From Dokdonia sp. Dokd-P16 (lineage in GTDB: Bacteria; Bacteroidota; Bacteroidia; Flavobacteriales; Flavobacteriaceae): 64,000 nucleotides of DNA. The DNA is taken from positions 515,501 to 579,500 of the forward strand of contig NZ_CP029151.1 of assembly GCF_003095655.1 (NCBI RefSeq), in the 5' to 3' direction. The notes under the pieces were generated by a model. The model made no database searches. It saw only the letters and a program-made list of their open reading frames with translations, and had not been told where the DNA came from. The position numbers were made by a program, and so were the translations under genes. Shown in pieces: positions 1,372-62,961 of this stretch (position 1 is the stretch's first letter; the number at the start of each line of letters is the position of its first letter).

Positions 1372-1385
1372 GCTTTCGCGAAAGC
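1372..1385. repeat. GCTTTCGCGAAAGC palindrome, copy 1
   Basis: Exact 14-bp palindrome in the 38-bp gap between the OmpA-family gene and tRNA-Arg. Confidence 0.9.
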
Positions 1386-1399
1386 GCAAATGTAAATCT

Positions 1400-3358
1400 T
1401 TACTGAGTAATCACAATAAATTCTGAACGACGATTTAATTGATGTTGCTCCTCTGTACAGTCTGAGTTGTTATCACAGGTATTTACGAGCTCTGTCTCGC
1501 CATAACCTTGACCAGATATCCTATTGGCATCGATACCTCTAGAGATAATGTATGCCACTGTAGATTTTGCTCTTCTATCTGAAAGTGACAGGTTATAATC
1601 ATCCTTACCTCGACTATCTGTATGTGACCTTACGCTTATCACCATATCTGGCACTTGCTTCATTGCAGAGATCACTTTTGTAAGCTCTAACGCAGCATCT
1701 GGTCTTATGTCAGATTTATTATAATCAAAGTAAATAGGATTAAGATTAAGAAGTTTTGCAAGATCGTCACCTACTCCTACTTCTGTAAGTCTCAACTCGA
1801 GCTCTATATCCTTTTGTAATGTTTCTGGCTCTGCCGGTGTGATCACAATAACCTCTTTTGCATAATATAATTTTGAGGTCGCACGTATTACATAATTTTC
1901 TGAGCATACGAGACTAAATCTATATAAGCCACGTGCATTTACATCAACTTCTTTTACCACTTCATTATCAGCATTCATGAGCTGTACTTTTGCATCCGTT
2001 ATAGGTTGCTTTGTCACCGCATCTGTAATAAAACCTAAGACATCTACATCACATCGTGGCTCTGGCTTTTCCTTTTGCTTGAATCTATAAATATCATCAC
2101 TACCCATTCCCTGATTACGACTTGAAGAAAAGAAACCAGTTTTTAAAGTGTCATTCACTATGTAGGCAAAATCATCTGCAGAGCTATTAATAGGTTCACC
2201 CAAGCTTGCAACCGTAATCTCTTCTGATGATGGGTTAGTCACAAAAATATCAAGTCCTCCCAGCCCTGGATATCCATCTGAGGCGTAGTAAAGATTCCCT
2301 GTACTACTCATAAATGGAAAGGCATCTCTTCCTTCTGTATTTATAGGTTTCCCAAGATTTACAGGCTCACCAAAGCTTCCATCACCATTAATAGCCACTT
2401 TCCAAATATCTGACAGCCCTACACTCCCTGGCCTATCTGATGAGAAATAAAGTGTTTTTCCATCTGGGCTTAACGCTGGGTGGGCAGTAGCATATTCTTC
2501 TTCATTAAATGAAACTTCAACCGCTTCTGACCAACTTCCTTTTTCCTTATCTAATAACCTAGATTTATAGATTTTCAATTTATTAATCCCATCTGACGAT
2601 TTTGCAAAATCTCCATCTGTAAAATTATTTCTTGTAAAATACATTGTCTTTCCATCCTTAGTAAACGTAGGAGTACTCTCATGGAAGATGGTATTTACCT
2701 TGCGGTGAAAACGTGAAGGCGGAGACATGCTTCCATCTTCCTTCATAGTGGACTTATATAAATCCAAAAATGGCTGATTGTTCCACTTATGTATACGTCT
2801 TGTAATAGAACCCGTATCTCTTGCCGAAGCAAAAATCACTTGATTCTTATAATATGACGGACCAAAATCTGAGTATCGAGAGTTCATCTCTCGTATCATA
2901 TTAACCGTATAATAGCTTTCTCGGTAGCCTTCTACCTTTGTATAATCTGGATTTTCTTTGAATAATTTTGCTCTGAAGTCATTTCCGCTTCGATCTGCAA
3001 AGATTTGCATCATCTCATCAGACTTATCATATTCTTTGATAGCACGTAGTGTTTGCGCATATCTAAAATAGTGCTCATCACTTACAGAGTCTGCATAGCT
3101 TTCTGTAAGTTTCCCATACCATTCTTGAGCTTGGGAGTACTTACCATTGTAATAGTAGGCTTCTGCTATTTTATTAAAAACTTGATAAGATTTAAAACCT
3201 TCTGCTACGAGGTCTTTATAGATTTCAATCGCATCTATATAAGCTAACTGATTAAACTTTTTATTTGCTCTAGCAAGCTTTCCTTGCTGTGCATTAGCAC
3301 TAGTAATTGTACTAAAAATAATCACTAAAATAAAGGCGCACCTCATAAATCCCTTCAT
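1400..3358 (-). CDS. OmpA-family protein with TPR and PD40 repeats (PorE-like architecture)
   Basis: A 652-residue secreted protein. A signal peptide ends near SANA-QQ (residue 23). TPR-like helices follow to about residue 130, then PD40/WD40-type beta-propeller repeats (HPALSPDGKTLYFSSDRPG, SSSRNQGMGSDDIYRF) to about 430. A carboxypeptidase regulatory-like beta-sandwich covers about 435-520, and a C-terminal OmpA peptidoglycan-binding domain (IYFDYNKSDIRPDA, then HTDSRGKDDYNLSLSDRRA) runs from about 535. This domain order is the one known for PorE of the type IX secretion machinery, but Bacteroidota carry several paralogs. No porP/sprF neighbour is present, so a T9SS role is only a possibility. 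It probably links the outer membrane to peptidoglycan. Confidence 0.85.
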   Translation of the reverse strand: MKGFMRCAFILVIIFSTITSANAQQGKLARANKKFNQLAYIDAIEIYKDLVAEGFKSYQVFNKIAEAYYYNGKYSQAQEWYGKLTESYADSVSDEHYFRYAQTLRAIKEYDKSDEMMQIFADRSGNDFRAKLFKENPDYTKVEGYRESYYTVNMIREMNSRYSDFGPSYYKNQVIFASARDTGSITRRIHKWNNQPFLDLYKSTMKEDGSMSPPSRFHRKVNTIFHESTPTFTKDGKTMYFTRNNFTDGDFAKSSDGINKLKIYKSRLLDKEKGSWSEAVEVSFNEEEYATAHPALSPDGKTLYFSSDRPGSVGLSDIWKVAINGDGSFGEPVNLGKPINTEGRDAFPFMSSTGNLYYASDGYPGLGGLDIFVTNPSSEEITVASLGEPINSSADDFAYIVNDTLKTGFFSSSRNQGMGSDDIYRFKQKEKPEPRCDVDVLGFITDAVTKQPITDAKVQLMNADNEVVKEVDVNARGLYRFSLVCSENYVIRATSKLYYAKEVIVITPAEPETLQKDIELELRLTEVGVGDDLAKLLNLNPIYFDYNKSDIRPDAALELTKVISAMKQVPDMVISVRSHTDSRGKDDYNLSLSDRRAKSTVAYIISRGIDANRISGQGYGETELVNTCDNNSDCTEEQHQLNRRSEFIVITQ

Positions 3359-3562
3359 AACCTCTTGGTATAAAAGTTAAACGTTAAAAACTATTTAGGG
3401 GGTTTATTTAAAGACTGCTTGAGTCTCGCTGGGGAACACAATATTAGTAAACCTTTTTTTCAAATGACACAACTATGTTGTCAATTCGATAAAAAGACTG
3501 CTTTCACGTATAAAAGGCTATTATATAAGAATTTTAAAGTAAATCAACTGACTACAAGACTA

Positions 3563-4012
3563 TTATGAAAGACGAGCCTTCACAATTGTACTAATGGTTT
3601 TACCATCTGCTTTTCCAGTAAGTCTAGCATTAACTTGTCCCATCACTTTACCCATATCTTTCATTCCTTGGGCACCAGTTGCGGCAATTATCTCATCTAC
3701 TACTTTAGTTACATCTGCCTCACTCATTTGTTCTGGTAAGAATTGAGAGATTACTTCTGCCTGTGCTATTTCTGGATCTGCAAGATCATTACGTCCTTGC
3801 TCTGCAAAGATAGCTGCACTATCCTTACGCTGCTTTACAAGTTTCTGTAATAACTTAAGCTCTTGCTCTTCGGTGATCTCTTCTTTTGCTCCTGTCTCTG
3901 TCTGCGCAAGTAAGATTGCAGATTTTATGGCACGTAGCGATGTTAATGCATTTTGATCTTTAGCTTTCATAGCTTCTTTCATTGCAGTCATCACTTGTGT
4001 AGATAGGCTCAT
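3563..4012 (-). CDS. yqeY: GatB/YqeY domain protein
   Basis: The 149-residue product starting MSLSTQVMTAMKEAMKAKDQ matches the usual length of YqeY. It shows the helical bundle pattern (LTSLRAIKSAILLAQTE, QLLQKLVKQRKDSAAIF-like segment) and the C-terminal GKVMGQVNARLTGKADG motif seen in the tail domain of GatB. The family's function is unclear; a link to tRNA-dependent amidotransferase chemistry is suggested only by the shared domain. An in-frame start nine codons upstream exists, but the family normally begins at MSL. It is the next gene after ftsZ on the same strand, beyond the ftsZ terminator. Confidence 0.88.
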   Translation of the reverse strand: MSLSTQVMTAMKEAMKAKDQNALTSLRAIKSAILLAQTETGAKEEITEEQELKLLQKLVKQRKDSAAIFAEQGRNDLADPEIAQAEVISQFLPEQMSEADVTKVVDEIIAATGAQGMKDMGKVMGQVNARLTGKADGKTISTIVKARLS

Positions 4013-4159
4013 AGTAGTATATATTTTTTTACTCAACACTCCTAATTAAGTTATGGAGTTTAAGAGATAATTTTATTGATTATAAATATCTTATTAAAGT
4101 CACGAAGATACGAGAAATGGTGAAATTAAATACACACCCAAGTAGCTTATAAAAAAGAA

Positions 4160-4189: not shown

Positions 4190-4215
4190 CGCTAAAAACT
4201 CTAAGCAGTAGCTGC

Positions 4216-6231
4216 CTAATCTACATTATCATGTAAAAATGAGTTATTACTTCTCAATTGAATTTCATCATTATCGTCTGTAGAAAGTGATGTTCTAGAC
4301 AAACTTCCATCTTTTGCTGGTGTTTCTTCTAGATCAATCCCCATACGCTTATACGCAGGTTGCTTTTCTATCTCCTCTATACGAGACTGATTTGTGCGAA
4401 ATTTATAATTGAATTCTTTCATCTTGCGCTTACGCTCAGAAGCTCTATCTATAAGAATCTGTGAGATAGGACTATTCATTGGGTCTATCTCTGCATTTTC
4501 ATCTTCACTCTTTTGTTGAGGAGCAACAGTTTTTGTTTCAAAAACAATAGTTTCTTCTTCAATATCGCTTTCATCTTCATCACTAGATGCGTTAGAAAGT
4601 GTTTCCTCAAGCTCCATGTAATCTTCAAGACTATATCGAGTTTCTCCAGTATTAGAATGCTCAGTTACTGGTACAATTTCTATAGGCTCCTTAACTTCAA
4701 TAGATGCTGTAGTGTCATCAAGATCAAACATGATAGGCTTCTCATCTTCCTCTACAGGCGCTTCTGTCGTTAGTGGCATATCAAAAAATAACATTCCATT
4801 ATTTTCTGGCTCTTTATGCTCTACTCTAGTCGCTTCATGACGCACTGTAGTATCTATGATTTCAAAATCTGCTTCATTCTCTAGAAGTATCTCATCATAC
4901 ACAACTGTAATATTCTTAATTACATCTGTAGTAGGAACTATATCCATACTATATTGCTGCGCAGGAGGCTGTACTGGCTCAGCTTTAGGAGCCTGCTCTG
5001 GCACAGCTTGTTGCCTTGTAATTTCTTTTACTGGCGCTTTCGCGAAAGCGGTAGGCCTCTTTTCCTCTATTTCATCAAGATCAAGTGTATGCACTATTTT
5101 CTTAGGAGCAACCGGTGCTTGTGGAGCTACTGGTGCCGAAGGTGGAATCTCTACAGTAGCATCTGGCATTAAATCTTGCTGTGCTCTTTGCTCCTCTTCT
5201 AGTGTATGAATGATTTTCTTAGTCTCTACGTTTACAATCTCATTCTGCTGCTCTGCATTAAATCCTGTAGCGATAATCGTTACAGAAATTGCATCGCCTA
5301 GAGAGTCATCTTCACCTACACCCATGATGATGTTTGCGCTGTGACCTGCCTCTGCTTGAATGTGATCGTTAATTTCTCCTATCTCGTCTATAGTAATCTC
5401 ATCACCACCAGAAACTATGAGTAATAATACATTCTTAGCTCCAGTAATTTTATTATCGTTAAGCAATGGAGAGTCAAGCGCTTTTGATATCGCCTCATTT
5501 GCACGACTTGTACCACTAGCAGTGGCGCTACCCATGATAGCTGTCCCTGATTTACTTAAAACTGTTTTTGCATCACGTAAATCGATGTTTTGTGTATAGT
5601 GATGTGTAATTACCTCTGCAATACCACGTGAAGCGGTTGCAAGAACTTCATCTGCTTTACTAAAACCTGCTTTAAAACCAAGATTACCGTAAACCTCACG
5701 GAGCTTGTTATTATTAATAACAATAAGTGAATCTACCTGGGCACGAAGTCTATCTACTCCTTTTTGAGCTTGCTCATTACGCATTTTACCTTCAAACTGG
5801 AATGGTATCGTGACAATCCCTACGACTAGGATATCAAGCTCACGAGCCATTTTGGCAATAACTGGCGCAGCACCCGTTCCTGTACCACCACCCATTCCGG
5901 CAGTAATAAATATCATCTTTGTGTTAGTACCAAGCATTTGCTTGATATCCATCTCACTCTCTATAGCCGCTTGTTCTCCAACATCTGGATTTGCTCCAGC
6001 ACCAAGACCTTCTGTAAGACCTACTCCCAGTTGTATCTTATTAGGTACTGTACTATTTTCCAGTGCTTGTGCATCTGTGTTACAGATTACAAAATCTACC
6101 CCATTTATTCCCTGCTGGAACATATGGTTAATAGCGTTACTACCTCCACCACCTACACCTATCACTTTAATTACGTGACTTTGGTTTTTAGGTAGATCAA
6201 ATGTGATGTTATCAAATTGTGTCGTACTCAT
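4216..6231 (-). CDS. ftsZ: cell division GTPase FtsZ with long C-terminal tail
   Basis: Tubulin-like GTPase that polymerises into the Z ring. The N-terminal IKVIGVGGGGSNAINHM (21-37) and the tubulin signature GGGTGTG (114-120) are intact. The product has 671 residues, far longer than the 380-390 of E. coli FtsZ. The excess is an acidic, proline-rich, low-complexity tail from about residue 340, ending in a short segment FLHDNVD that probably serves as the C-terminal docking peptide. A copy of the GCTTTCGCGAAAGC palindrome lies in the tail and is read as AFAKA around residue 395. It is the last dcw gene, 93 bp after ftsA. Confidence 0.97.
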   Translation of the reverse strand: MSTTQFDNITFDLPKNQSHVIKVIGVGGGGSNAINHMFQQGINGVDFVICNTDAQALENSTVPNKIQLGVGLTEGLGAGANPDVGEQAAIESEMDIKQMLGTNTKMIFITAGMGGGTGTGAAPVIAKMARELDILVVGIVTIPFQFEGKMRNEQAQKGVDRLRAQVDSLIVINNNKLREVYGNLGFKAGFSKADEVLATASRGIAEVITHHYTQNIDLRDAKTVLSKSGTAIMGSATASGTSRANEAISKALDSPLLNDNKITGAKNVLLLIVSGGDEITIDEIGEINDHIQAEAGHSANIIMGVGEDDSLGDAISVTIIATGFNAEQQNEIVNVETKKIIHTLEEEQRAQQDLMPDATVEIPPSAPVAPQAPVAPKKIVHTLDLDEIEEKRPTAFAKAPVKEITRQQAVPEQAPKAEPVQPPAQQYSMDIVPTTDVIKNITVVYDEILLENEADFEIIDTTVRHEATRVEHKEPENNGMLFFDMPLTTEAPVEEDEKPIMFDLDDTTASIEVKEPIEIVPVTEHSNTGETRYSLEDYMELEETLSNASSDEDESDIEEETIVFETKTVAPQQKSEDENAEIDPMNSPISQILIDRASERKRKMKEFNYKFRTNQSRIEEIEKQPAYKRMGIDLEETPAKDGSLSRTSLSTDDNDEIQLRSNNSFLHDNVD
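5035..5050. repeat. CGCTTTCGCGAAAGCG palindrome inside ftsZ, copy 2
   Basis: Exact 16-bp palindrome within the FtsZ tail coding sequence, in the frame that reads AFAKA. Confidence 0.9.
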
Positions 6232-7745: not shown

Positions 7746-8462
7746 TTATTTTTTCTCACAAACTACTTGCCCGTCATACTTGAGCTCTATAGTTTTATAC
7801 TTATCTAAACTTTTATCTCTAAGTGCTTTTTGATAAAAAGCCTTATAATTACTAAATCTCTTTTCTAACGCTTCTACCTTACCTAGTGATACAGTATACC
7901 CTAGTTTTCTAACCTTTAACATATACTCTGCGTTCTTACTTCGAGATATACCTATAATGTGCTTTGCAAGAAACTCATCCTTCCTTATAAAATTTACAAG
8001 CTTATAAACTTCGCTTATTTCTTTCTCGGTTGCTCCGGTTACAAGGGGAACGTGCGCGGAGTGATTTTGTGATAATGGCATCACCTCACCACTCTCATCT
8101 ATATAAAAAGAAATAGCACCGCTAAGTCGTGCTATAGGCTTACGTTGCTCTATTGCAACACCTATATCACCACCCATCGTTACGTAAACATCTGCATTCT
8201 TGATAATTGGATGCGCCTTCACGCGCTTTTCCATCTCACTCAAAGCTATATTTTCTTTTACCTTTCCTGCAAGCTTTTCGTTACTTACTATCAACAATTT
8301 ATTAACGGTCTCACGCGTCACAAAAGGAGCACTTTCATCCTTAAATGAAACACTAACTTCAGCCACTGTGCGCGCCTCATTTCTTTGAATTGCAAACGCA
8401 AACAAAAACACCGTCCACAGCAGTAAAACCGACATCTTTATGTAAAACCAGTTAACCTTCAC
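7746..8462 (-). CDS. ftsQ: FtsQ-like cell division protein
   Basis: A 238-residue protein with a short cytoplasmic start, one membrane segment (ILLWTVFLFAFAI-like, residues about 8-25) and a periplasmic POTRA-like region (VEISF-type strand, then MEKRVKAHPIIKNADVYV and a glycine-rich strand IGVAIEQRKPIARL). This is the pattern of FtsQ/DivIB, the scaffold of the FtsQLB complex. Sequence conservation in the family is low, so position between murC and ftsA is strong support. Its start overlaps the end of murC by 11 nt, indicating coupled translation. Confidence 0.88.
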   Translation of the reverse strand: MKVNWFYIKMSVLLLWTVFLFAFAIQRNEARTVAEVSVSFKDESAPFVTRETVNKLLIVSNEKLAGKVKENIALSEMEKRVKAHPIIKNADVYVTMGGDIGVAIEQRKPIARLSGAISFYIDESGEVMPLSQNHSAHVPLVTGATEKEISEVYKLVNFIRKDEFLAKHIIGISRSKNAEYMLKVRKLGYTVSLGKVEALEKRFSNYKAFYQKALRDKSLDKYKTIELKYDGQVVCEKK

Positions 8463-9804
8463 CCCGCAGTTCTTTTGTTACTTTTAAAATCTCTACACCT
8501 ATATCTCCAGCACCCATCATCACAACAATTTTATGCTTCGTACCTTTTACTAAAGCAATAAGCTCATTTTTCTGTATAATTTGCTTTCGCGAAAGCGTCA
8601 TTTCACTAAGCAATACTTCGCTAGTTATACCATCAATAGGCTCTTCTCTTGCTGGGTAAATATCAAGCAGTGCTACTTCATCAAAACGAGAAAGCGCTAC
8701 TGCAAAATCACTCATAAAATCTTTTGTTCTACTAAATAAGTGTGGCTGAAAAATAGCTAGCACACTCTGCTCTGGATACATCTCTCTTACACTTTGATGC
8801 ACCGCAGCAATTTCTGTAGGGTGATGCGCATAATCATCTATTAACACCATATCTTCTTTCTGGATACGGTATGTAAATCGGCGATTAACGCCTGAATAGC
8901 TCGCTAGTGCTTCAATCAACTGTTCTTTAGGACTACCATACGATAATGCCATCCCTAATGCAGCTACAGCATTAAAAAGATTGTGTCTTCCTGGCAGGCT
9001 AAATCGTAAATTCTCCAAAACACCACCTGGGTAGTGCAAGTCAAAGACATAAGCACCATTCTCTATACGCACTCGCTGCGCAGTATAATCTGCATCCTCC
9101 TCAATACCAACCGTATTTCCAGCTAGTGGAAGTCCGCTTTTTACAAAACGCTTATCTTTTGGAGCTAGTGCCCCAAATTCTTGGAACGTAGCGATAAGGT
9201 CTGCCTCATCTTCATAAATATCAAGATGATCTGCATCCATAGAAGTCACACAGAGAATATCTGGCCTAAGCTGTAGGAATGAGCGATCAAACTCATCTGC
9301 CTCCACAACCACAACGTCACTTCCTTTTTGGATTAAATTACCATTATAATTATTTGTGATACCGCCTATAAATGCAGTTACCGGGGCTCCGGTTGCCGCC
9401 AGTAGATGACCCAAAATACTAGAAGTAGTCGTTTTACCATGCGTTCCCGCAACAGCAAGTGAGAAGCTTTGATTTGCAATCATGCCCAATACTTCTGCTC
9501 TTTTTTTAAGGGTAAATCCGCTTTCGCGAAAATATACTAGCTCTCCCATCATTTTAGGAACAGCAGGAGTAAACACCACTAGGGTATCCTCCTTACTCGT
9601 AAACGAACTATCAATTGCCTCTTTTTTATCTTCAAAATGAACCTTAATCCCAGATGCTTGCAAAGCTGCCGTTACATCTGAAGGCGTTTTATCATAACCC
9701 GCTACATTCTTGCCCTCCTTATGGAAGTACAACGCTAGCGCACTCATACCTATCCCACCGATACCGATGAAGTAAATGTTCTGTATGTCTTTTAAAGGTT
9801 TCAT
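8452..9804 (-). CDS. murC: UDP-N-acetylmuramate--L-alanine ligase
   Basis: Adds L-alanine to UDP-MurNAc in the first step of the stem peptide. The N-terminal IYFIGIGGIGMSALA motif, the ATP-binding GTHGKTTTS (120-128), the central EADEFDRSF and the DDYAHHPTEI motif are all present. Length 450 is normal. The gene carries an exact palindrome (read TLSRKQ near residue 402) and a degenerate one (read YFRES, residues 91-95), so two members of the repeat family lie within one essential enzyme gene. It overlaps ftsQ and follows murG after 55 bp. Confidence 0.96.
   Translation of the reverse strand: MKPLKDIQNIYFIGIGGIGMSALALYFHKEGKNVAGYDKTPSDVTAALQASGIKVHFEDKKEAIDSSFTSKEDTLVVFTPAVPKMMGELVYFRESGFTLKKRAEVLGMIANQSFSLAVAGTHGKTTTSSILGHLLAATGAPVTAFIGGITNNYNGNLIQKGSDVVVVEADEFDRSFLQLRPDILCVTSMDADHLDIYEDEADLIATFQEFGALAPKDKRFVKSGLPLAGNTVGIEEDADYTAQRVRIENGAYVFDLHYPGGVLENLRFSLPGRHNLFNAVAALGMALSYGSPKEQLIEALASYSGVNRRFTYRIQKEDMVLIDDYAHHPTEIAAVHQSVREMYPEQSVLAIFQPHLFSRTKDFMSDFAVALSRFDEVALLDIYPAREEPIDGITSEVLLSEMTLSRKQIIQKNELIALVKGTKHKIVVMMGAGDIGVEILKVTKELRGEG
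8583..8596. repeat. GCTTTCGCGAAAGC palindrome inside murC, copy 3
   Basis: Exact copy within murC, read in the LSRK frame. A degenerate relative, CGCTTTCGCGAAAA, lies in the same gene at 9519-9532. Confidence 0.9.
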
Positions 9805-13622: not shown

Positions 13623-13638
13623 CGCTTTCGCGAAAGCG
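13623..13638. repeat. CGCTTTCGCGAAAGCG palindrome between mraY and murD, copy 4
   Basis: Exact 16-bp palindrome ending 3 bp before the mraY stop codon on the plus-strand map. It lies inside the dcw transcription unit. Confidence 0.9.
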
Positions 13639-16343: not shown

Positions 16344-18331
16344 GATAATTGTAGCGTGATTATTTTATTCTTCTCTATTTTATCGCCAGCTTTTATAGAC
16401 TGACTTTTTACTTTCCCGCTTCCGCGAAAATTTACTTTTAAACCTAGATTTTCTAGTAATGCAATTGCATCCATCCCAGGCATTCCTTTTACATTAGGCA
16501 TCTTGCTATGTGCTTTATTCACATTTGCATAATACTTCTGATAATCTCCCTCAATAACCTTTGAATTACCTGTAGGCAACTTCACCTCATCAATTACTGG
16601 AGTATCTGTATAAATCTTTTGAGCAATCTCCTTAAATACCGGTGCAGCAACAATATTTCCGTAAAATCCGAGAGACTTTTTAGGTTTATTTACTACCACA
16701 ATACAAGAATACTTAGGCTCATCTGCTGGAAAATAGCCTGCAAATGATGAAATATACCTCCCTGCTTCTATCCAATACTCCGTCTGGCAAGTACCCGTCT
16801 TTCCAGCCATTGAAAACTCTTCGCTGTAAATATTTCTAGCCGTTCCACGCTCAACAGTTTTTTTCATCATCTCCTTTACTACATTAATAGTAGCCTGAGA
16901 TGCGATACGAGAATTGATCACCTCTTTATCAAAAGTCTCAATGGTTTGATCCCATTCTTTCACCTCTTTAATAAAGCGAGGCTTTACCATCTCTCCATCA
17001 TTTGCAATCGCATTGTAAAATGTGAGTGTTTGTAAAGGCGTTAACTCTATCCCGTAACCAAAAGCCATCCATGGAAGCGTTGTCCCATACCAGTTTTTAT
17101 CTCCTGGGTAAGGAAAATTTGGTTTTCCTTCTCCTTTAATTTCAAGTCCTAGCTGATCATTAAGCCCCATATTAAAAAGTCGTTTTACAAACTTTTCTGG
17201 CTCTGACGCGTAGTTATCGTTTATCATTTTGGCGAAAGCCGTATTACTACTCAGCTCAAAAGCCTTTGCCGCTGTTATCTTACCATAACCTCCACGCTTA
17301 GAATCTATCGCGGTGCGATCATAAAATTTTACACGTCCATTTTCTGTGTCAAAAACTGTACTTGAGTCTATTACTTTATCCTCAAGTGCGGCTACCATAG
17401 TCATCAACTTAAATGTAGAACCTGGCTCGTGCGCCTCGCCTACCGCATAGTTAAGACGCTCATAGTATTTACCTTCAGGAGTTCTACCTAGATTTGAGAT
17501 TGCTTTAATCTCTCCAGTTTTTGTCTCCATAACGACCACACATCCATGGTCTGCTTGATATTTTTGTAGACTTGCTAATAATGCATTGTGTGCTACATCT
17601 TGAATATTTACATCTATGGTTGAGATTACATCATAACCATCTCGTGGCTCGATCACATTACCTACACCAAGAGGCTTCCATTCTCCTTTTGCAATCTTCT
17701 GCTTAAGACGACGACCTTCTTTCCCACGCAAGTAATACCCATATGCTCCCTCAAGACCCACGCGTGTGTAGTAACCACTATCATCTTGACGCTCATACCC
17801 TACGGTACGCTCTGCCATTTTCTCAAGTGGATGCTCACGCTCTGTATGCTCCTCGATAATAATCCCGCCTCTAAATTGACCTTTATTAAATAATGGTAGA
17901 GACTTAATCTTCACATACTCTGCGTAGCCTAGTTTTCTAGCAATAAACAGGTAACGGTTTTTGGTATTACGTGCTTTACGTAGTCTATTCTCATAATAAG
18001 ATTGAGGCTTCCCTAAAACTTTAGAAAGACCCTTAGAAAGACCAACTATATTCTCGTTGAAATTCTCCTTAGATGGTGCTACTGCGTCCCATCGTATATC
18101 GTATTTGATTTGTGAAGTAGCAAGAAGACTCCCATCTTCTGCATAAAGATTACCACGAGTAGCTGGGATGGTCACCATCTTCTCTGTGCTAGTAGTAGCA
18201 AGCTCACGATACTTAGCACCTTGAAACACCTGAATCACAATAAGCTTGTATGCAATTATGATCGCTAGGAGGAACATACATCCAGCGACGAAATAAAGGC
18301 GGTTTAATATGTGCTTCTCTGTGGTTGCCAC
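16340..18331 (-). CDS. ftsI: septal penicillin-binding protein 2/3 with PASTA domain
   Basis: Class B transpeptidase that cross-links septal peptidoglycan. One N-terminal membrane anchor (residues about 12-35), a dimerisation region, and a transpeptidase domain with STFK (305-308, catalytic Ser305), SSNTA and KTGT motifs are present. A single PASTA domain (MPNVKGMPGMDAIALLENLG onward) closes the 663-residue protein. The PASTA region carries a degenerate palindrome copy read as NFRGSG. It lies between ftsL and murE, the normal place for FtsI. Confidence 0.95.
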   Translation of the reverse strand: MATTEKHILNRLYFVAGCMFLLAIIIAYKLIVIQVFQGAKYRELATTSTEKMVTIPATRGNLYAEDGSLLATSQIKYDIRWDAVAPSKENFNENIVGLSKGLSKVLGKPQSYYENRLRKARNTKNRYLFIARKLGYAEYVKIKSLPLFNKGQFRGGIIIEEHTEREHPLEKMAERTVGYERQDDSGYYTRVGLEGAYGYYLRGKEGRRLKQKIAKGEWKPLGVGNVIEPRDGYDVISTIDVNIQDVAHNALLASLQKYQADHGCVVVMETKTGEIKAISNLGRTPEGKYYERLNYAVGEAHEPGSTFKLMTMVAALEDKVIDSSTVFDTENGRVKFYDRTAIDSKRGGYGKITAAKAFELSSNTAFAKMINDNYASEPEKFVKRLFNMGLNDQLGLEIKGEGKPNFPYPGDKNWYGTTLPWMAFGYGIELTPLQTLTFYNAIANDGEMVKPRFIKEVKEWDQTIETFDKEVINSRIASQATINVVKEMMKKTVERGTARNIYSEEFSMAGKTGTCQTEYWIEAGRYISSFAGYFPADEPKYSCIVVVNKPKKSLGFYGNIVAAPVFKEIAQKIYTDTPVIDEVKLPTGNSKVIEGDYQKYYANVNKAHSKMPNVKGMPGMDAIALLENLGLKVNFRGSGKVKSQSIKAGDKIEKNKIITLQLS

Positions 18332-20123: not shown

Positions 20124-20334
20124 TTGTTAACAATATGTTGATGAGTAGAATTTTATAATTTTCTTTCTCTTTTGAGCTTGATTTTCTTTTTTTTGCTTTC
20201 GCGAAAGCGTACTAAAACAACTTGCTATAACCTTAAAAATGCTCAGTATCACGCATTAAGACCATTGTAAAAAAAGAGCAACTAATCAAAACCGAAATAA
20301 GTATATTTGCTTATACCGATTACTAACCACTTTT
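20124..20334. other. intergenic region between mraZ and the alpha/beta hydrolase
   Basis: Together with 20019-20123 this forms a 316-bp divergent gap. It holds one palindrome copy (20195-20209) and a TAnnTTTG match, TATATTTG at 20302-20309 on the plus strand, about 26 bp before the hydrolase start and a possible -7 element. Nothing else is recognised. Confidence 0.5.
20195..20209. repeat. GCTTTCGCGAAAGCG palindrome, copy 5
   Basis: Exact copy in the gap between the divergent mraZ and hydrolase genes, preceded by a run of T. Confidence 0.9.
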
Positions 20335-21834: not shown

Positions 21835-22200
21835 CTAATAAGATTCTATAATTTTATTGACTTGCTCAATAAGCTCTTGAGAAGATGCAATACCAGTAAA
21901 TGCATCTGCACTTATTACAACTTCCAGACCAGCTTCTGTAACCGCTAGTACCACGGGAAATTCATACTTAGGCAACCACTTAGATTTATAAGCTTTTAAA
22001 AATTCATCCTTGTGAAGAAATTCTAATGGTGTTTTAACGCTTTCGCGAAAGCGTAACCATTCCTCCTTTTCCTTAAACACTCCAAAGGTTAAACTGCACA
22101 AATCACACTCGTAGGTTTCTGGACGTATCCATTTGTGCGCACTATCCATAAGTGCATTGAGTTTTCCTGAATTTGCGTTATAAACAAATAGTAGCTTCAT
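21835..22200 (-). CDS. conserved hypothetical protein with CxxC motif
   Basis: A 121-residue protein starting MKLLFVYNANSGKLNALMDSAHKW. The chosen ATG opens a hydrophobic first strand; the longer frame adds 14 residues with no family-like character. It contains a paired cysteine motif YECDLCSLTFG at about residues 29-39 and a C-terminal segment VLAVTEAGLEVVISADAF resembling a beta-alpha unit. The fold is unknown to me; a thioredoxin-like or redox role would be a guess from CDLC. A palindrome copy lies inside the gene and is read as RFRES. Confidence 0.75.
   Translation of the reverse strand: MKLLFVYNANSGKLNALMDSAHKWIRPETYECDLCSLTFGVFKEKEEWLRFRESVKTPLEFLHKDEFLKAYKSKWLPKYEFPVVLAVTEAGLEVVISADAFTGIASSQELIEQVNKIIESY
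22038..22053. repeat. CGCTTTCGCGAAAGCG palindrome inside the 21835-22200 gene, copy 6
   Basis: Exact 16-bp palindrome within coding sequence, in the frame that reads FRES. Confidence 0.9.
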
Positions 22201-22263
22201 TAGAACAAATATAATATCACTTACCTTGAAGCAAAGCAACATTTACTGACTGTTTCTAATTAA

Positions 22264-27193: not shown

Positions 27194-27207
27194 GCTTTCG
27201 CGAAAGC
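27194..27207. repeat. GCTTTCGCGAAAGC palindrome, copy 7
   Basis: Exact copy in the 228-bp gap between the convergent LytTR and gldC genes. No other element is recognised in that gap. Confidence 0.9.
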
Positions 27208-30273: not shown

Positions 30274-32246
30274 ACAGATAGAACTCGCCCTAGTTTATTA
30301 CCTAGCAACGTATTAAGAGATTGATAATCAAGAATATCTTTAATGATTTCTTTATTGTCTGTACTATCCTTGGTCTGATTCATCAACTCCTTTATCTTTT
30401 CTGTAATAAGATATTTTCTGAGGCTCAGTACCGTTTCTGTAACAAACTGACCTACAGAAGTATCCTTTTTACGCACATAAACCTCTCGGGTATCCCATCT
30501 ATGAAGCTCATACTTCTCATCATTAAGGATGATATTAGATATCTCACTAGCTTCCTCTGGTGCTAGCTCATTGATAAAATTCTGAACTTGGAAATTTTGA
30601 TCTAGGTGCATTTTCGCTACTATTTTACCATAGATCACCTTAAAGAGGTCATTTGTAAACTCCACCTCATCATCTTGAAGATCTAGGTAGATTTTTTCAA
30701 AAACTCTTGCCTTATGAACTATAGGCTCCAGCTCAAGACTACCATCTTCATTTTCCTTAAGAACAAGATCTTCAAAATCTTCTTCTACCTGCCCGTATAA
30801 AAGTAGCGACTCTATGAGCTTACGCTCAAGTTCATATAGCACATTAACTTTCTCAACAGCATTAGGCATCTCATCTGGGACCACAGACATATATTCTGGT
30901 GGTGGTGATTGATTACCTCGATCTTGTTTTACTGTTTCTTTTTTATCTTTCTTAAGTATTTGAGCAAGCGTATTATACAACACAGTCTCAGAAACCTCCA
31001 TTATGCGCGCACACTCTTGCACATAAATTTCTTGCTTTATGGCGTCAGGTATTTTAGAAATACTCTCTACCATATCACGCACAGTATCTGCTTTTTTTAC
31101 AGGATCGCCAGCCGCTTCTTCTACGAGCAGGTTTGCTTTGTACTGTATAAAATCTTTTGCATTTTCATCAAAAAAAGCAACGATTTCTTCTTTACTATGC
31201 TTTCGCGAAAAAGAATCTGGATCCTCACCCTCAGGAAAGGAGCAAACCCTCACGTTCATTCCCTGCTCAAGGATTAAATCAATCCCTCGTAGTGCTGCTC
31301 GCTGTCCCGCAGCATCACCATCAAAGAGGACCGTAATATTTTTAGTGAGTCTATTTATTAATCGTATTTGCTCAGGAGTAAGCGCTGTTCCAGAAGAAGA
31401 AACTACATTCTCAATACCCGACTGAAACATCTGTATCACATCTGTATACCCTTCTACCAGGTAACAGTTATCCTCCTTTGCAATAGCTTGCTTTGCATAA
31501 TAAATACCATAAAGCACTTTACTCTTGTGGTAAATATCACTTTCTGGAGAGTTGAGATATTTTGCCGCTTTCTTGCTACTATCTAATATTCTACCTCCAA
31601 AACCTAGCACACGACCACTCATAGAGTGTATAGGAAACATCACACGCCCTTTAAAACGGTCAAATTGTTTCTCCTCCTTTACAATGGATAGTCCGGTTTT
31701 TTCTAAGTAATCTAGTTTGTATCCTTGGCGTATTGCCTCACTTGTAAAAGCATCCCATTGATCAGGATTATATCCTAACTCAAATTTTTCAATAGTCGCT
31801 GCAGTAAACCCACGTTCCTTAAAGTATGAAAGACCTATTGCCTTTCCTTGCTCAGAGTTGAGCATTGTTTTATGGAAATAATCACGAGCATACTCACTCA
31901 CGAGATACATACTCTCACGCTCATTTGCAGCCTCCTTTTGCTCATCTGTACGCTCTGTCTCCTCTATCTCAATGTTGTACTTTTTGGCAAGGTACTTTAT
32001 GGCTTCTGGATAGCTAAAATGCTCATGTTCCATTAAGAATGAAACCGCCGAACCTCCTTTACCTGTAGAGAAATCTTTCCAAATTTGCTTAACAGGACTC
32101 ACCATAAAACTTGGCGTGCGCTCGTCAGAAAATGGAGAGAGCCCTTTAAAGTTTGACCCCGACTTTTTAAGAACTACAAAATCGCCTATCACCTCCTCTA
32201 CACGAGCAGTTTCAAAAACTTTATCTATGGTTTCTTTGGATATCAA
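30270..32246 (-). CDS. dnaG: DNA primase
   Basis: Makes RNA primers for replication. The 658-residue product has an N-terminal CHC2-type zinc-ribbon fold, a TOPRIM core (YLVEGYTDVIQMFQSG, then VLFDGDAAGQRAALRG) and a C-terminal DnaB-interaction region. The zinc ligands are gone: the positions of the usual CPFH and CFGC cysteines/histidine are Ser37, Ser40, Asp58 and Thr61. A degenerate palindrome is read as FSRK near residue 345. It is transcribed convergently with the response regulator, sharing their stop-codon region. Confidence 0.96.
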   Translation of the reverse strand: MISKETIDKVFETARVEEVIGDFVVLKKSGSNFKGLSPFSDERTPSFMVSPVKQIWKDFSTGKGGSAVSFLMEHEHFSYPEAIKYLAKKYNIEIEETERTDEQKEAANERESMYLVSEYARDYFHKTMLNSEQGKAIGLSYFKERGFTAATIEKFELGYNPDQWDAFTSEAIRQGYKLDYLEKTGLSIVKEEKQFDRFKGRVMFPIHSMSGRVLGFGGRILDSSKKAAKYLNSPESDIYHKSKVLYGIYYAKQAIAKEDNCYLVEGYTDVIQMFQSGIENVVSSSGTALTPEQIRLINRLTKNITVLFDGDAAGQRAALRGIDLILEQGMNVRVCSFPEGEDPDSFSRKHSKEEIVAFFDENAKDFIQYKANLLVEEAAGDPVKKADTVRDMVESISKIPDAIKQEIYVQECARIMEVSETVLYNTLAQILKKDKKETVKQDRGNQSPPPEYMSVVPDEMPNAVEKVNVLYELERKLIESLLLYGQVEEDFEDLVLKENEDGSLELEPIVHKARVFEKIYLDLQDDEVEFTNDLFKVIYGKIVAKMHLDQNFQVQNFINELAPEEASEISNIILNDEKYELHRWDTREVYVRKKDTSVGQFVTETVLSLRKYLITEKIKELMNQTKDSTDNKEIIKDILDYQSLNTLLGNKLGRVLSV

Positions 32247-32413: not shown

Positions 32414-32428
32414 GCTTTCGCGAAAGCG
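32414..32428. repeat. GCTTTCGCGAAAGCG palindrome, copy 8
   Basis: Exact copy 12 bp downstream of the outer-membrane protein gene end. Confidence 0.9.
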
Positions 32429-33534: not shown

Positions 33535-33585
33535 AACTGTTTGTGTTTTGTGCGCTCGATGATGGCGCATTATTGATGAATTTTC

Positions 33586-34386
33586 TTAATTATCTTTATT
33601 TGCAACTGCCTCTACGGCTCTATTAAACTCTTTTTTGAGCGTGCGGAACATTCTATCTTTAAAAGAGTCTGGATCTACCTCAGCCTCTACATCTAGTAAT
33701 AATTCGTTTGCATTTACCACTGGAGTTTGTGCTTCATAGGTTTTCTGTCGCTTTATTTCAGTTTGTGCATTTTTAAGTAACATATCCACTTCATCATCAG
33801 TTACCGAGAAGTCACTAGCACCAACAACTTCAACGCCAGTTTTTTCTTGAGACACATATGCCTTGTTAAGTGGCTCATCACTTACGATTCCGACATTATC
33901 CTTATCTACCTTCGCTACGGCACTGTTTTTAGTTGAAGCAACTGTGGCTGTTGGCTTATAATTATTGCGGTATGTTTTGGTAGCAGCAGTATTAGTTTTT
34001 TGCTTCGCATCACGCTTTCGCGAAAGCGTAACCTCATCCTTCTCCACCTCTGCTGCAGCATCTACTTTTGATGCGTCTACTACCTGTATGTTCTCAATGT
34101 TCCTTAAATTAATATTACTTGCATCTTCTTTATCGATGGTATTATTAATAGTTTCTGGCGTTTGTACTATTTGATTTTCTATTCCATCAGTATCACCTCC
34201 AAAAATGATAGCTGTAAGAAAAACACCTGCAATAAAACTAGCTGCAATAGCAAGCCAAAAGATTATACCATTCTTCTTTTTACCCTGCTCCGTCTCAAGT
34301 TTACCCTCTATACGATCCCAAGCAGATGCGGTAGGTGCTATGCGGCGACCTTCCAACTTTTCTCTAAAATTATCTTCTAACTTCAT
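33586..34386 (-). CDS. membrane anti-sigma-factor-like protein
   Basis: A 266-residue protein with a short cytoplasmic N-terminus (LEDNFREKLEGRRIAPTASAWDRIEGKL), one membrane segment (IIFWLAIAASFIAGVFLTAII, about residues 40-60) and a low-complexity extracytoplasmic region. Overlap of 17 nt with an ECF sigma gene and this topology suggest an anti-sigma factor, though no zinc-binding HxxxCxxC motif is seen. The extracytoplasmic part carries a palindrome copy read as TLSRKRD. Confidence 0.72.
   Translation of the reverse strand: MKLEDNFREKLEGRRIAPTASAWDRIEGKLETEQGKKKNGIIFWLAIAASFIAGVFLTAIIFGGDTDGIENQIVQTPETINNTIDKEDASNINLRNIENIQVVDASKVDAAAEVEKDEVTLSRKRDAKQKTNTAATKTYRNNYKPTATVASTKNSAVAKVDKDNVGIVSDEPLNKAYVSQEKTGVEVVGASDFSVTDDEVDMLLKNAQTEIKRQKTYEAQTPVVNANELLLDVEAEVDPDSFKDRMFRTLKKEFNRAVEAVANKDN
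34013..34028. repeat. CGCTTTCGCGAAAGCG palindrome inside the anti-sigma-like gene, copy 9
   Basis: Exact 16-bp palindrome in coding sequence, in the LSRK frame. Confidence 0.9.
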
Positions 34387-35721: not shown

Positions 35722-35920
35722 TAGTAGTATATTAGGACTGTAAAAGTACCATTTTACTCCCTATTATTTTAACGCAGGTTCATAGCTGTGAGCGGGATTA
35801 AGTATTACTTTTACAAGGCTATTATAAAAGAAAAACTTTTTCGCGAAAGCGAGAGAAAAACGCTATACAGAGTGCAATATCTTGAATTAAAGTGCGCTAT
35901 GTAAGGGTAATTACATTATT

Positions 35921-38328: not shown

Positions 38329-38342
38329 GCTTTCGCGAAAGC
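38329..38342. repeat. GCTTTCGCGAAAGC palindrome, copy 10
   Basis: Exact copy between the aminotransferase stop codon and its terminator, so it is transcribed in the 3' UTR. Confidence 0.9.
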
Positions 38343-38500: not shown

Positions 38501-38516
38501 CGCTTTCGCGAAAGCG
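38501..38516. repeat. CGCTTTCGCGAAAGCG palindrome, copy 11
   Basis: Exact 16-bp copy 66 bp upstream of the DUF885 gene, only about 170 bp from copy 10: the closest pair in the window. Confidence 0.9.
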
Positions 38517-45431: not shown

Positions 45432-45446
45432 CGCTTTCGCGAAAGC
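45432..45446. repeat. CGCTTTCGCGAAAGC palindrome, copy 12
   Basis: Exact copy in the eno-gltA intergenic region. Confidence 0.9.
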
Positions 45447-47052: not shown

Positions 47053-47154
47053 TTATTAGTTACGTAAAAATACGATTTTGATGATGATTTTGTAAAGTCT
47101 ATGTTCTTTTGTAGCGATAACGTTTTCGCGAAAGCAAAATTTTTAAACTAAAAA

Positions 47155-49741: not shown

Positions 49742-49757
49742 CGCTTTCGCGAAAGCG
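49742..49757. repeat. CGCTTTCGCGAAAGCG palindrome between rpoA and rplQ, copy 13
   Basis: Exact 16-bp copy within the ribosomal transcription unit. Confidence 0.9.
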
Positions 49758-56530: not shown

Positions 56531-56545
56531 CGCTTTCGCGAAAGC
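56531..56545. repeat. CGCTTTCGCGAAAGC palindrome between rpsN and rpsH, copy 14
   Basis: Exact copy inside the ribosomal transcription unit, in one of its few wide gaps. Confidence 0.9.
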
Positions 56546-58993: not shown

Positions 58994-59014
58994 TTTTTAC
59001 TGTCTTTTTAAAAA

Positions 59015-59737: not shown

Positions 59738-59741
59738 CTAA

Positions 59742-60152
59742 TTAATTGCTTTGTGTGTTATCTTTTGCTCCAAGAATCACTGTTACGTGATTAGAACGTT
59801 TTCTAATTCTGTGCGCGCGACCTTGTGGTGCTGGACGTAGTCTTTTCAACATTGTTCCAGAATCCACTTTGATCTCTTTAATAAAAAGATTAGCATCTTC
59901 GATACTAGCATCCTCATTCTTAGCTTCCCAGTTTGCAACTGCAGAAAGAACAAGTTTCTCAACTTTACGTGACGCCTCTTTATTACTAAATTTCAACAAC
60001 TGAAGTGCTCTCTCCACCTGCGTACCTCGTACCATATCTGCTACAAGACGCATTTTACGTGGAGAGGTAGGGCAGTTATTCAATTTCGCGAAAGCGATAG
60101 ACTTATTAGCCTCTTTGCGACGATTAGCCGCTTCTTTTTTACGAACTCCCAT
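59742..60152 (-). CDS. rplV: 50S ribosomal protein L22
   Basis: Large-subunit protein whose loop lines the exit tunnel. The 136-residue product has a basic N-terminal extension ([18 protein letters not shown]) before the core [20 protein letters not shown] and ends [18 protein letters not shown] degenerate palindrome (TTTCGCGAAAGCG, 60084-60096) is read as IAFAK at the boundary between extension and core. Confidence 0.97.
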
Positions 60153-60158
60153 CTCCTG

Positions 60159-60440: not shown

Positions 60441-60446
60441 ATCTTA

Positions 60447-61271: not shown

Positions 61272-61280
61272 TTTTTTGTC

Positions 61281-61571: not shown

Positions 61572-61577
61572 CGTGTC

Positions 61578-62207: not shown

Positions 62208-62818
62208 TACTTCTGAATGATTACATAAGCATTTTTGTGACCAGGAACACATCCTTTCACTACAAGTAGATTCTTTTCAGCAACTACTTTCAATACTTTA
62301 AGATTTTGAACTTTTATTTTGTCACCACCCATACGACCTGCCATACGCATTCCTTTGAATACACGTGCAGGGTAAGATGCTGCCCCAATTGAACCTGGCG
62401 CTCTAAGACGGTTATGTTGACCGTGAGTAGCTTGTCCAACACCACGGAAACCGTGACGCTTTACAACTCCTTGAAAACCTTTACCTTTTGAAGTTCCCGA
62501 TACATCGACAAATTCTCCTTCAGCAAAATGATCTACAGTAATTGCATCTCCTAATTTAAACTCTCCTTCAAATCCTTGAAATTCGACAACTTTACGCTTA
62601 GCAACAGTTCCTGCTTTTTTGGCGTGGCCAGCAGCAGCTTTGTTTGCCTTCTTAGCGTCATCGAAACCAAGTTGAAGGGCTTCATACCCGTCAGCTTCTG
62701 TGGTTCTGACTTGGGTGATAACGCAGGGACCTGCTTCGATAACGGTACATGGAATATTTTTTCCATTCTCGTCAAAGATGCTAGTCATACCTACTTTCTT
62801 TCCGATTAACCCAGACAT
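62207..62818 (-). CDS. rplC: 50S ribosomal protein L3
   Basis: Early-assembly protein near the peptidyl-transferase centre. The 203-residue product begins [20 protein letters not shown] and has the signature [20 protein letters not shown] plus [21 protein letters not shown] gap of 153 bp separates it from rpsJ, the widest in the ribosomal cluster, with a terminator-like hairpin in it. Confidence 0.97.
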
Positions 62819-62852
62819 AATTATAAATATTTGTTATTAAAAAATCTATTCT

Positions 62853-62884
62853 AAAAAAAACAAGGCCGAACACGTTCGACCTTG
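62853..62884 (-). terminator. terminator-like hairpin between rpsJ and rplC (possible attenuator)
   Basis: On the minus strand CAAGGTCGAA pairs with TTCGGCCTTG around CGTG, including one U-G that is a mismatch on the plus strand, then eight T follow (62853-62860). It looks like an intrinsic terminator placed inside the ribosomal transcription unit, 35 bp before rplC. Confidence 0.75.
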
Positions 62885-62945
62885 AATGTGTGTTTCCGTT
62901 TTTCCCTCGCACGCAGCTCAGGACAAATTAGTGTGGTAATTAATA

Positions 62946-62961
62946 CGCTTTCGCGAAAGCG
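62946..62961. repeat. CGCTTTCGCGAAAGCG palindrome between rpsJ and rplC, copy 15
   Basis: Exact copy, here extended to the 20-bp perfect palindrome TACGCTTTCGCGAAAGCGTA (62944-62963). On the minus strand it lies between GTGTG and CACAC, which could add an outer stem. Confidence 0.9.

Follow-up and report, generated by a model that had tools for sequence, protein, structure and literature searches.

Results

The window, the whole 64-kb stretch of Dokdonia DNA analyzed here, contains ftsZ, a Mur ligase gene placed as murC, a murD-like gene, mraY, dnaG, and genes for an aminotransferase, a DUF885 protein and citrate synthase, together with a gene at 1400-3358(-) that, judged by eye from its translation, presumably encodes an OmpA-like protein. 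A Pfam scan of three window proteins gave no domain above the cut-off. Dispersed over the window are 15 exact copies of the palindromic 14-mer GCTTTCGCGAAAGC (Table 1), all of which were confirmed at the coordinates given in the initial annotation. The extension to the 16-mer CGCTTTCGCGAAAGCG reported there is found at 7 of the 15 sites, and the six degenerate relatives are likewise real, with one to three mismatches each.

Table 1. Copies and variants of GCTTTCGCGAAAGC in the window, and their state in four Dokdonia relatives (G001, G004, G005, G007) and in G207, from another genus
Feature	Position	Context	State in relatives
Exact copy	1372..1385	intergenic, 14 bp beyond stop of gene 1400-3358(-)	exact in 4/4 Dokdonia
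Exact copy, 16-mer	5036..5049	within ftsZ (4216-6231, -), C-terminal of FtsZ domains	exact in G004, G005, G001; absent from G007
Exact copy	8583..8596	within Mur ligase gene 8452-9804(-), murC by position	exact in G004, G005, G007; G001 without site, no gap
Half variant GCTTTCGCGAAAAT, 2 mismatches	9520..9533	murC-position gene	exact site here in L070, L071, G001
Exact copy, 16-mer	13624..13637	intergenic, murD-like gene / mraY	exact in 4/4 Dokdonia
Degenerate copy, 3 mismatches	16418..16431		
Exact copy	20195..20208	divergent intergenic region	exact in G004, G005, G001, despite differing G001 flanks
Exact copy, 16-mer	22039..22052	within reading frame 21835-22242(-)	exact in 4/4 Dokdonia and G207
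Exact copy	27194..27207	convergent intergenic region	no projection onto any relative
Half variant GCTTTCGCGAAAAA, 2 mismatches	31199..31212	within dnaG	
Exact copy	32414..32427	intergenic, dnaG / 32440-33570(-)	exact in 4/4 Dokdonia
Exact copy, 16-mer	34014..34027	within reading frame 33586-34395(-)	exact only in G004
Half variant TTTTTCGCGAAAGC, 2 mismatches	35837..35850		
Exact copy	38329..38342	intergenic, past aminotransferase gene 37130-38314(+)	exact in G004, G005, G001
Exact copy, 16-mer	38502..38515	intergenic, ahead of DUF885 gene 38582-40366(+)	exact in 4/4 Dokdonia
Exact copy	45433..45446	intergenic, upstream of citrate synthase gene	exact in G005; one mismatch in G004; absent from G001, G007
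One-mismatch copy GTTTTCGCGAAAGC	47122..47135		
Exact copy, 16-mer	49743..49756	intergenic	exact in G004, G005, G001; absent from G007
Exact copy	56532..56545	intergenic	exact in 4/4 Dokdonia
Two-mismatch copy AATTTCGCGAAAGC	60082..60095		
Exact copy, 16-mer	62947..62960	intergenic	exact in G004, G005; one mismatch in both G001 and G007

The recurrence is far beyond chance, as had been suspected, and extends beyond the window: the 3.62-Mb genome holds 808 copies against approximately 0.005 expected from base composition, while 100 dinucleotide shuffles of the window yielded none. This corresponds to a mean interval of about 4.5 kb, or 0.22 sites per kb. In an 864-kb sample of the genome, sites are nearly all-or-none, with 197 exact against 23 one-mismatch copies (two control motifs gave 0 and 0 in these classes), and 139 of the 197 extend to the 16-mer; strictness is weaker in small samples of two other motif-high genomes (exact versus one-mismatch, 26:8 in G003 and 52:12 in G207). 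The one-mismatch forms are changed mainly at the two outermost positions (16/23). Only 1 of 48 two-mismatch variants is still palindromic, which indicates that the sequence is read and not its base pairing. These data support the view that the motif is a sequence-specific, duplex-symmetric, chromosome-wide site. It combines the gross over-representation of a short palindrome that characterizes highly iterated palindromes with the hundreds of strict genomic copies that characterize DNA uptake sequences. Within the literature collection searched, there was nothing on the 14-mer, no related title among the matches listed for TTTCGCGAAA, and, in titles and abstract openings, nothing relevant on Dokdonia with palindromes, repeats or intergenic motifs.

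The initial description of single sites in all contexts is borne out by the 104 coding and 93 intergenic sites of the genome sample, although, with genes called by a longest-reading-frame script, density is 0.80 per kb in intergenic against 0.14 per kb in coding DNA. Short gaps are rare (12 of 158 under 1 kb, versus 25.6%, sd 3.2, in simulations that retain the intergenic bias), and the coefficient of variation of the gaps is 0.61 against 0.95 simulated, a value that low occurring in none of 1000 simulations. For the 83 sites in classified gaps, density is similar in co-directional (1.03 per kb), convergent (1.02) and divergent (0.90) ones, and sites are thus without link to transcription or operon direction; even spacing with neither orientation nor operon bias is also a feature of DNA uptake sequences. 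The motif is flanked on each side by about 20 keto-rich bases, such that each strand is G/T-rich on the 5' side of the site, and no flank sequence is common to the copies beyond approximately 4 bp. The (G/A)NAA right flank noted at 10 of the 15 window sites is indeed there, but the polarity it implied is local: in 40 stretches outside the window, it occurs on the right only at 47 and on the left only at 43 of 182 sites.

Three near-canonical parS sites (1-2 mismatches) lie within 3 kb (C1:1337034-1340063), near the GC-skew switch. The scan, at up to 3 mismatches, gave 18 matches in the genome, fewer than the 34 of a reversed control, so that only the tight cluster is informative. Motif density shows no trend with distance from this cluster (Spearman 0.12, P 0.46), and therefore the depletion near the terminus that the initial annotation had raised is not seen.

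Comparisons between orthologues show how sites differ among species. Eight coding pairs with and without a site, from only three loci, align gap-free, and a further five are gapped; at these three comparable loci, sites appear to arise by substitution. Among intergenic pairs, 8 are gap-free and 26 can be aligned only with gaps, which leaves room for insertion there. Intergenic sites are conserved between species above local controls. All 15 ftsZ loci of the genus with the whole gene have a site, at positions varying by subclade, and hence sites turn over while local density around ftsZ is maintained.

Each of the 18 Dokdonia genomes searched carries between 369 and 905 copies. Within a Flavobacteriaceae sample, the motif is high in 3 of 235 genera, and in a sample of the phylum the window's genome is the only high one; the FtsZ tree, with its long branches, gives no decision between a shared and a separate origin of the three high genera. 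Stretches of motif-poor genera contained no other GC-containing motif at such density, and family-wide "dialects" are therefore not evident. The idea that low-copy genomes retain an ancestral group of parS-like sites by the origin was considered and dropped, as the pairs of sites 933 bp apart sit in one efflux gene. Phage contigs carry several genuine sites each, with keto shoulders of 0.637 on multi-site contigs, compared with 0.483 where a GC-rich contig has a single site. A comparison of the terminases of these phages with 42 genomes, meant to link them to Dokdonia, gave no match and, run without a positive control, is uninformative. A 40-base query against named phages and plasmids returned 38 and 14 records, all partial and chance-like and none covering 80% of the query.

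Discussion

By analogy, the closest known kinds of element are the cyanobacterial HIP1 and the DUS/USS sequences, and cells may use the motif to tell their own DNA from other DNA. HIP1 is spread over coding and non-coding DNA, as is the Dokdonia motif. HIP1 (GCGATCGC) and the alternate HIPs are also GC-rich palindromes iterated hundreds of times or more, limited to particular lineages and unproven in function (PMC4390886); the Dokdonia motif differs in its length (14 bp or more versus 8 bp), its keto-rich shoulders and its phylum. With the DUS, USS and DUES of Neisseriaceae and Pasteurellaceae it shares hundreds of copies, even spacing, an excess in non-coding DNA, the lack of orientation bias, a steep drop at one mismatch and, to judge from the three coding loci compared, a gradual origin by point mutation (PMC1939737). 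The motif departs from these elements in being palindromic, in occurring on phage contigs, and in a pilus-assembly ATPase family that passes the cut-off in just 3 of the 11 high genomes searched and does not do so in the genome of the window.

We tentatively propose, with less than even confidence, that the motif acts as a self-DNA signal akin to DNA uptake sequences, maintained by molecular drive and recognized by the Flavobacteriaceae transformation machinery. A DNA receptor of this machinery, which is apparently not a type IV pilus, would sit on the surface or in the periplasm and prefer fragments carrying the symmetric core with its keto-rich shoulders. Fragments of relatives' DNA with a site would be taken up and recombined more frequently than those lacking one; site-creating mutations would thus spread and site-breaking ones would be replaced, with about one site per uptake-sized fragment as the predicted endpoint, here one per 4.5 kb.

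Beside the copy number, strictness, even spacing and intergenic bias of the motif, its lack of a link to transcription, the substitutions at the comparable coding loci and the turnover around ftsZ stands the presence of general transformation machinery genes: all 12 high genomes searched for ComEC have it, as do all 12 searched for a DUF5689 protein, and both count in favor of an uptake signal. A Riemerella relative of the DUF5689 protein is required for transformation according to a transposon screen, with no pilus gene among the hits listed (PMC8459023), and the DUF5689 gene of the window's genome comes after a CarboxypepD_reg-domain gene, as in Riemerella. One paper reports that Riemerella columbina favors its own DNA, with no signal established, and that Flavobacterium johnsoniae has homologues of type IV pilus components (PMC7965970). 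Our proposal supposes that Dokdonia may transform at all, that its uptake would be biased, that the reader would be an uptake receptor, and that a pilus would not be needed; a literature search found no paper combining Dokdonia and natural competence. The DUF5689 protein, the one candidate compared, is probably not the reader and was set aside, since motif-poor genomes have it just as often (22 of 24 searched) and its phylogeny does not track the motif, with three changes needed and another type present in G003, itself of the genus Dokdonia. With this one candidate, the co-occurrence with the motif expected of a cognate receptor was not seen. Also counting against an uptake signal are the non-palindromic nature of known uptake sequences (PMC1939737) and the genuine sites on phage contigs, which such a signal does not need. 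So do the rarity of the pilus-assembly ATPase among high genomes, the lack of comparably dense motifs in the stretches of motif-poor genera, and the weaker strictness in small samples of other high genomes.

The chief rival, which we regard as nearly as likely, is a putative homodimeric DNA-binding protein that would organize, segregate or mark the chromosome every 4.5 kb or so, with a small selective value at each site and with phages and mobile elements gaining sites by sharing the cell. The perfect two-fold symmetry, keto-rich shoulders included, fits such a protein, as do the strictness, the reading of sequence over pairing, the even spacing, the similar density across operon types and at all distances from the parS cluster, the conservation of intergenic sites between species, and the same keto shoulders on multi-site phage contigs. 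However, no reader protein was found, and per-site selection is demanding for 800 sites of which about half are coding. Nucleoid sites such as parS and those of Noc, MatP and SlmA are, like the motif, single dispersed palindromes of about 12-18 bp, but architectural sites number tens, whereas the motif has some 800 strict copies, no regional distribution and no known protein. We consider it somewhat unlikely that the motif is specifically a self mark read in the cell, whereby a homodimeric protein of three Flavobacteriaceae genera would recognize approximately 800 identical 14-bp palindromes and phages and mobile DNA would have to carry the mark. We know of no system that combines about 800 strict palindromes, keto-rich shoulders, and marked phages and mobile DNA.

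Sites could also accumulate with no function of their own. In a mutational model of the type published for HIP1 (PMC4390886), a DNA methyltransferase acting within the motif would bias mismatch repair and so work as a ratchet. The outward form is the same as that of HIP1, and the concentration of one-mismatch changes at the two outermost positions also speaks for such a model, but the methylation signature expected of the inner palindromes is not seen (ratios outside the motif of 1.03 for TCGCGA and 0.81 for CGCG), and 7 of the 12 high genomes searched, among them that of the window, lack a cytosine-5 methyltransferase. Both features also separate the motif from HIP1 itself and make the ratchet improbable. 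Very improbable is a bidirectional Chi-like signal at which a RecBCD or AddAB nuclease would leave RecA a keto-rich single strand on either side: density resembles that of Chi in E. coli, each strand is G/T-rich ahead of the site, and phages carry the motif, but known Chi sites are much shorter than 14 bp and are defined by a strand polarity that a palindrome cannot have.

Still less credit can be given to a short mobile element of the REP or MITE type that inserts copies. Such elements are short dispersed palindromes with an intergenic bias, and strict copies and the 26 gapped intergenic pairs would suit them; against this, the motif belongs to no longer unit, flank similarity ends at about 4 bp, spacing is even, and 16 pairs (8 coding, 8 intergenic) are gap-free, with substitutions at the coding loci compared. 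The initial annotation had placed the motif nearer to sites of nucleoid proteins such as ParB or Noc than to REP elements. Its distinction from REP elements finds support, but the binding of a ParB or Noc-like paralogue is extremely improbable and was rejected: the halves do read TTTC...GAAA and copies are chromosome-wide, yet the genome has one ParB_N protein, which appears to have its own separate parS cluster and thus leaves no ParB-type protein free, half-site spacing is unlike that of parS and Noc sites, and density has neither an origin nor a terminus trend. The least credible explanation, a hairpin in the RNA (for instance, a transcription terminator), draws on the 29 of 80 distances to a neighboring stop codon that are 4-16 bp, and was discarded because the flanks (T/G-rich before, A/C-rich after) are the reverse of a bidirectional terminator, in which an A-tract precedes and a T-tract follows the hairpin at the ends of genes, divergent gaps are nearly as site-rich as the others, about half of the sites are coding, and compensatory variants are absent with one exception.

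Should the motif act in uptake, no palindromic signal of this kind and no defined one from Bacteroidota would, to our knowledge, have preceded it; it would also be relevant to the unexplained preference of Riemerella columbina for its own DNA and offer a handle on the DNA receptor still to be named, and the prediction is testable in Dokdonia, a cultivable marine genus. Should it be a protein site, it would point to a chromosome organizer with more and stricter sites than any we know of. Under either reading, the motif would serve as a tracer of DNA moved between genera, as in efflux operons, and would mark phages likely linked to motif-bearing hosts.

Copy number and taxonomic spread

All 15 exact copies of the palindrome GCTTTCGCGAAAGC that the initial annotation had reported in the window are present where it placed them, and none arose in 100 shuffles. 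The whole genome holds far more than base composition predicts, with 808 exact copies in one contig (C1) of 3,623,447 bases against 0.005 expected; the pattern read backwards does not occur in it. On C1 the window spans 515501-579500. The 18 Dokdonia genomes searched contain 369-905 copies each. In a family sample of 249 genomes from 235 genera, 196 have none, 53 have at least one and 48 have 1-17, and hundreds of copies are found in five genomes of three genera: Dokdonia (808 and 857), g11 (578 and 664) and g191 (408). A phylum sample of 394 genomes, which contained no g11 or g191 genome, yielded 22 with a match, the window's genome being the sole one with hundreds. Dokdonia forms a single clade in a tree of 29 FtsZ loci. 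In 26 stretches from motif-poor genomes, no other palindrome containing G or C and at least 10 bases long was seen three times, and no unrelated 11-mer reached five occurrences; 10-mers of A and T only occurred 3-4 times in three of these stretches.

The 14-mer had no match in the literature searched, and titles and abstract openings on Dokdonia and on iterated palindromes held nothing about it. We place it among the genome-wide iterated oligonucleotides. It is alike in form to the cyanobacterial iterated palindrome HIP1 and to DNA uptake sequences, which is not proof that it is either.

A strict core between keto-rich shoulders

In a sample of the window's genome (41 stretches, 864 kb, 197 sites) the motif is nearly all-or-none: 197 exact copies stand beside 23 with one mismatch and 48 with two, and the corresponding counts for two control words are 0, 0, 4 and 0, 0, 1. 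Strictness is weaker in smaller samples from the Dokdonia genome G003 (26, 8, 10) and from G207, outside Dokdonia (52, 12, 31). Among the two-mismatch sites, 35 of 48 read GCTTTCGCGAAA followed by AT or AA, one outer half being gone, and only one of the 48 is still palindromic, so base pairing is not the conserved property. The left and right flanks show no pairing above composition, and the inner palindromes are not enriched elsewhere in the DNA examined. The core is lengthened to CGCTTTCGCGAAAGCG at 139 of the 197 sites, and the surrounding consensus widens to TTACGCTTTCGCGAAAGCGTAA.

On both sides of the motif, the strand that enters the site 5' is rich in G+T (keto) over about 20 bases. 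The keto fraction at -5 to -16 on each side is 0.650, compared with controls of 0.501 (SD 0.012) around 11 frequent palindromic 8-mers, most of them built of A and T alone, and 0.493 around 1121 pooled palindromic 8-mers with at least four G/C; the bias fades out by about 20-25 bases. These shoulders are also present in g191, despite its different base composition. In 16 ortholog pairs with one site-less side, keto is 0.617 on that side versus 0.690, and therefore the shoulder predates or outlives the core. In the window, ACTTTCACGAAAGG recurs locally in three similarly flanked copies, each with three mismatches to the motif; this repeat resembles the motif but is probably unrelated to it.

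Placement and spacing

With genes called by our own longest-reading-frame script, 104 sites of this sample are coding (0.14 per kb) versus 93 intergenic (0.80 per kb), a bias that is weaker in G207 (0.11 and 0.25 per kb, respectively). For the 83 sites with both neighbours known, densities per kb are near equal in co-directional (1.03), convergent (1.02) and divergent (0.90) gaps, which disfavours promoter and terminator readings. Spacing is more even than chance. Gaps below 1 kb number 12 of 158 (7.6%) versus 25.6% (SD 3.2) in simulations that preserve the intergenic bias, and the coefficient of variation is 0.61 versus 0.95, with none of 1000 simulations as low. The initial annotation had proposed a search for depletion near the terminus; density is flat with distance from the parS cluster.

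Two of 40 20-kb stretches of this genome lack any site: L010, which is AT-rich and contains an integron-like cassette array, and L048, of ordinary GC (0.387). The array part of a further stretch, L037, is site-free, all three L037 sites lying outside it. The array repeats (four copies in L010 and five in L037, 1.2-1.6 kb apart with small reading frames between) measure about 100 bp or more, contain CCGATAGCTATCGG, end near GGCCTGTT and look attC-like by eye.

Conservation and turnover between relatives

For the window's sites, projections were made to the orthologous DNA in four Dokdonia genomes and, where alignment allowed, in G207. Fourteen of the 15 could be projected and, by our own count in site-by-site alignments, are exact in 13/14 cases in G004, 13/14 in G005, 10/14 in G001, 7/14 in G007 and 1/4 in G207, frequently with altered flanks (for instance, 20195 in G001 and 1372 in G005). 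Controls were compared in longer alignments, which are more prone to slip. There, intergenic sites are exact in 9/10, 10/10, 7/10 and 4/9 cases (G004, G005, G001 and G007), and control 14-mers nearby in fractions of 0.515, 0.331, 0.186 and 0.118 (binomial P 0.014, 2e-5, 5e-4 and 0.015). Conservation of position between species, which the initial annotation had proposed to check, is seen above nearby controls for intergenic sites in these four genomes. Coding sites, at 4/4, 3/4, 2/4 and 1/3 against window-wide coding controls of 0.620, 0.298, 0.148 and 0.097, are too few for significance.

Over all pairs of five genomes, which are non-independent, 62 of 241 projections are inexact. Eight coding site/no-site pairs (three loci) align cleanly without gaps at 2-8 substitutions, and eight intergenic ones are gap-free with one mismatch; gaps are needed to align five further coding pairs and 26 intergenic ones, the latter making origin by insertion possible in intergenic DNA. 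An exact site lies nearby in 15 pairs. ftsZ was searched in 16 of the 18 Dokdonia genomes, and G012, a fragment only, was left out. All 15 remaining loci (4-5 kb) hold a site, after the FtsZ domains in seven and at varying places in the remainder; outside Dokdonia, there is one site in G027 (g11) and none in G258, G207 or 11 motif-poor genomes. At ftsZ, site position turns over and local density stays.

Sites on viral contigs

At least 120 viral-contig stretches match the motif in a pattern scan. Among the matches listed, we class 22 stretches as multi-site; their 27 distinct sites have a keto fraction of 0.637, and 43 of the 54 flanks carry C at -1. Single sites among the matches listed, our internal control for chance copies, have keto fractions of 0.483 on GC-rich contigs (n=50) and 0.517 on AT-rich ones (n=15, a class that still includes L209 and L214, both from the same contig). 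Multi-site contigs carry genuine sites, at a density that is a biased estimate because viral contigs were chosen for carrying them. Matches among 20 scanned proteins of multi-site contigs include terminases, portal proteins, a major head protein, tape-measure proteins, a transposase and an integrase. Regarding hosts, a three-row terminase model, run without a positive control, had no match in 42 genomes.

Candidate mechanisms

Among known kinds, DNA uptake sequences are the best match in strictness, evenness, non-coding excess and indifference to transcription, as described in PMC1939737, and we tentatively favour an uptake signal as a possible, rather than probable, role. A pilus-assembly ATPase family passes its cut-off in three of the 11 high genomes searched and in five of the 24 others, and does not pass it in the window's genome. 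According to PMC8459023, transformation of Riemerella anatipestifer requires ComEC, DprA, ComF and RecA, a predicted outer-membrane protein with a carboxypeptidase-regulatory domain, and DUF5689, helix-hairpin-helix and DUF1343 proteins; a pilus may thus be dispensable for transformation in Flavobacteriaceae. PMC7965970 describes R. columbina as favouring its own DNA, the signal not being established, and reports that F. johnsoniae has homologues of the type IV pilus. The window's genome encodes ComEC and a CarboxypepD_reg/DUF5689 pair.

Against an uptake signal, DUF5689 occurs just as often where the motif is scarce, in a tree discordant with the motif, phage contigs bear genuine sites, and known uptake sequences, according to PMC1939737, are non-palindromic, whereas the Dokdonia motif is palindromic. 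These objections hold the uptake reading down and leave a possible rival only slightly less likely, in which an intracellular chromosome-organising or self-marking protein reads the motif. ParB or Noc, to whose binding sites the initial annotation had likened the motif, is unlikely in this role, with one ParB_N protein encoded and three near-canonical parS located elsewhere, inside 3 kb. Cytosine-5 methylation, in a simple form, does not account for the motif in 7 of the 12 high genomes searched.

At the DUF5689 loci (L298-L329), the C-terminal half varies between genomes by eye, in what looks like a module swap; we take it to be choice-of-anchor-J-like in many and lamin-tail-like in G218, G018, G231 and G177.

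Coordinates of features in extracted loci (L), in the window and on the contig of the window's genome (C1)
Feature	Position	Contig stretch	Contents
405-aa gene site pair	L049:7431-8377		
405-aa gene site pair	L050:8588-9534		
405-aa gene site pair	L052:4266-5212		
405-aa gene site pair	L055:5727-6673		
Possible transformation locus	L330:219-7998	C1:1684001-1692000	CarboxypepD_reg, 968 aa; DUF5689, 499 aa
Flanks of its CarboxypepD_reg/DUF5689 pair	L330:1219 and 6671		Motif copies at these positions; Exo_endo_phos_3 gene each side
Integron-like cassette array	L010:10082-14210	C1:90001-110000	
Integron-like cassette array	L037:533-6322	C1:2610001-2630000	
Site-less stretch	L048	C1:3600001-3620000	
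parS cluster		C1:1337034-1340063	
Local repeat	window 645-1176		

Sites outside the three high genera

Of the 48 low-copy family genomes, 13 contributed the 19 loci, with 37 sites, that we examined. Since the flanks of 30 distinct low-copy-genome sites are keto-biased (0.674), we infer that these sites are DNA transferred from motif-rich donors. Of seven site-bearing genes scanned, four encode parts of efflux systems, either ACR_tran pumps or outer-membrane proteins of the OEP family; the remaining three belong to the Beta-lactamase, AbiEii and DUF2652 families. In four Flavobacteriaceae genera, two sites lie exactly 933 bp apart inside one 405-aa gene, whose L049 copy is an OEP efflux protein by domain scan. 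With its site pair, this gene might serve to trace such transfer.
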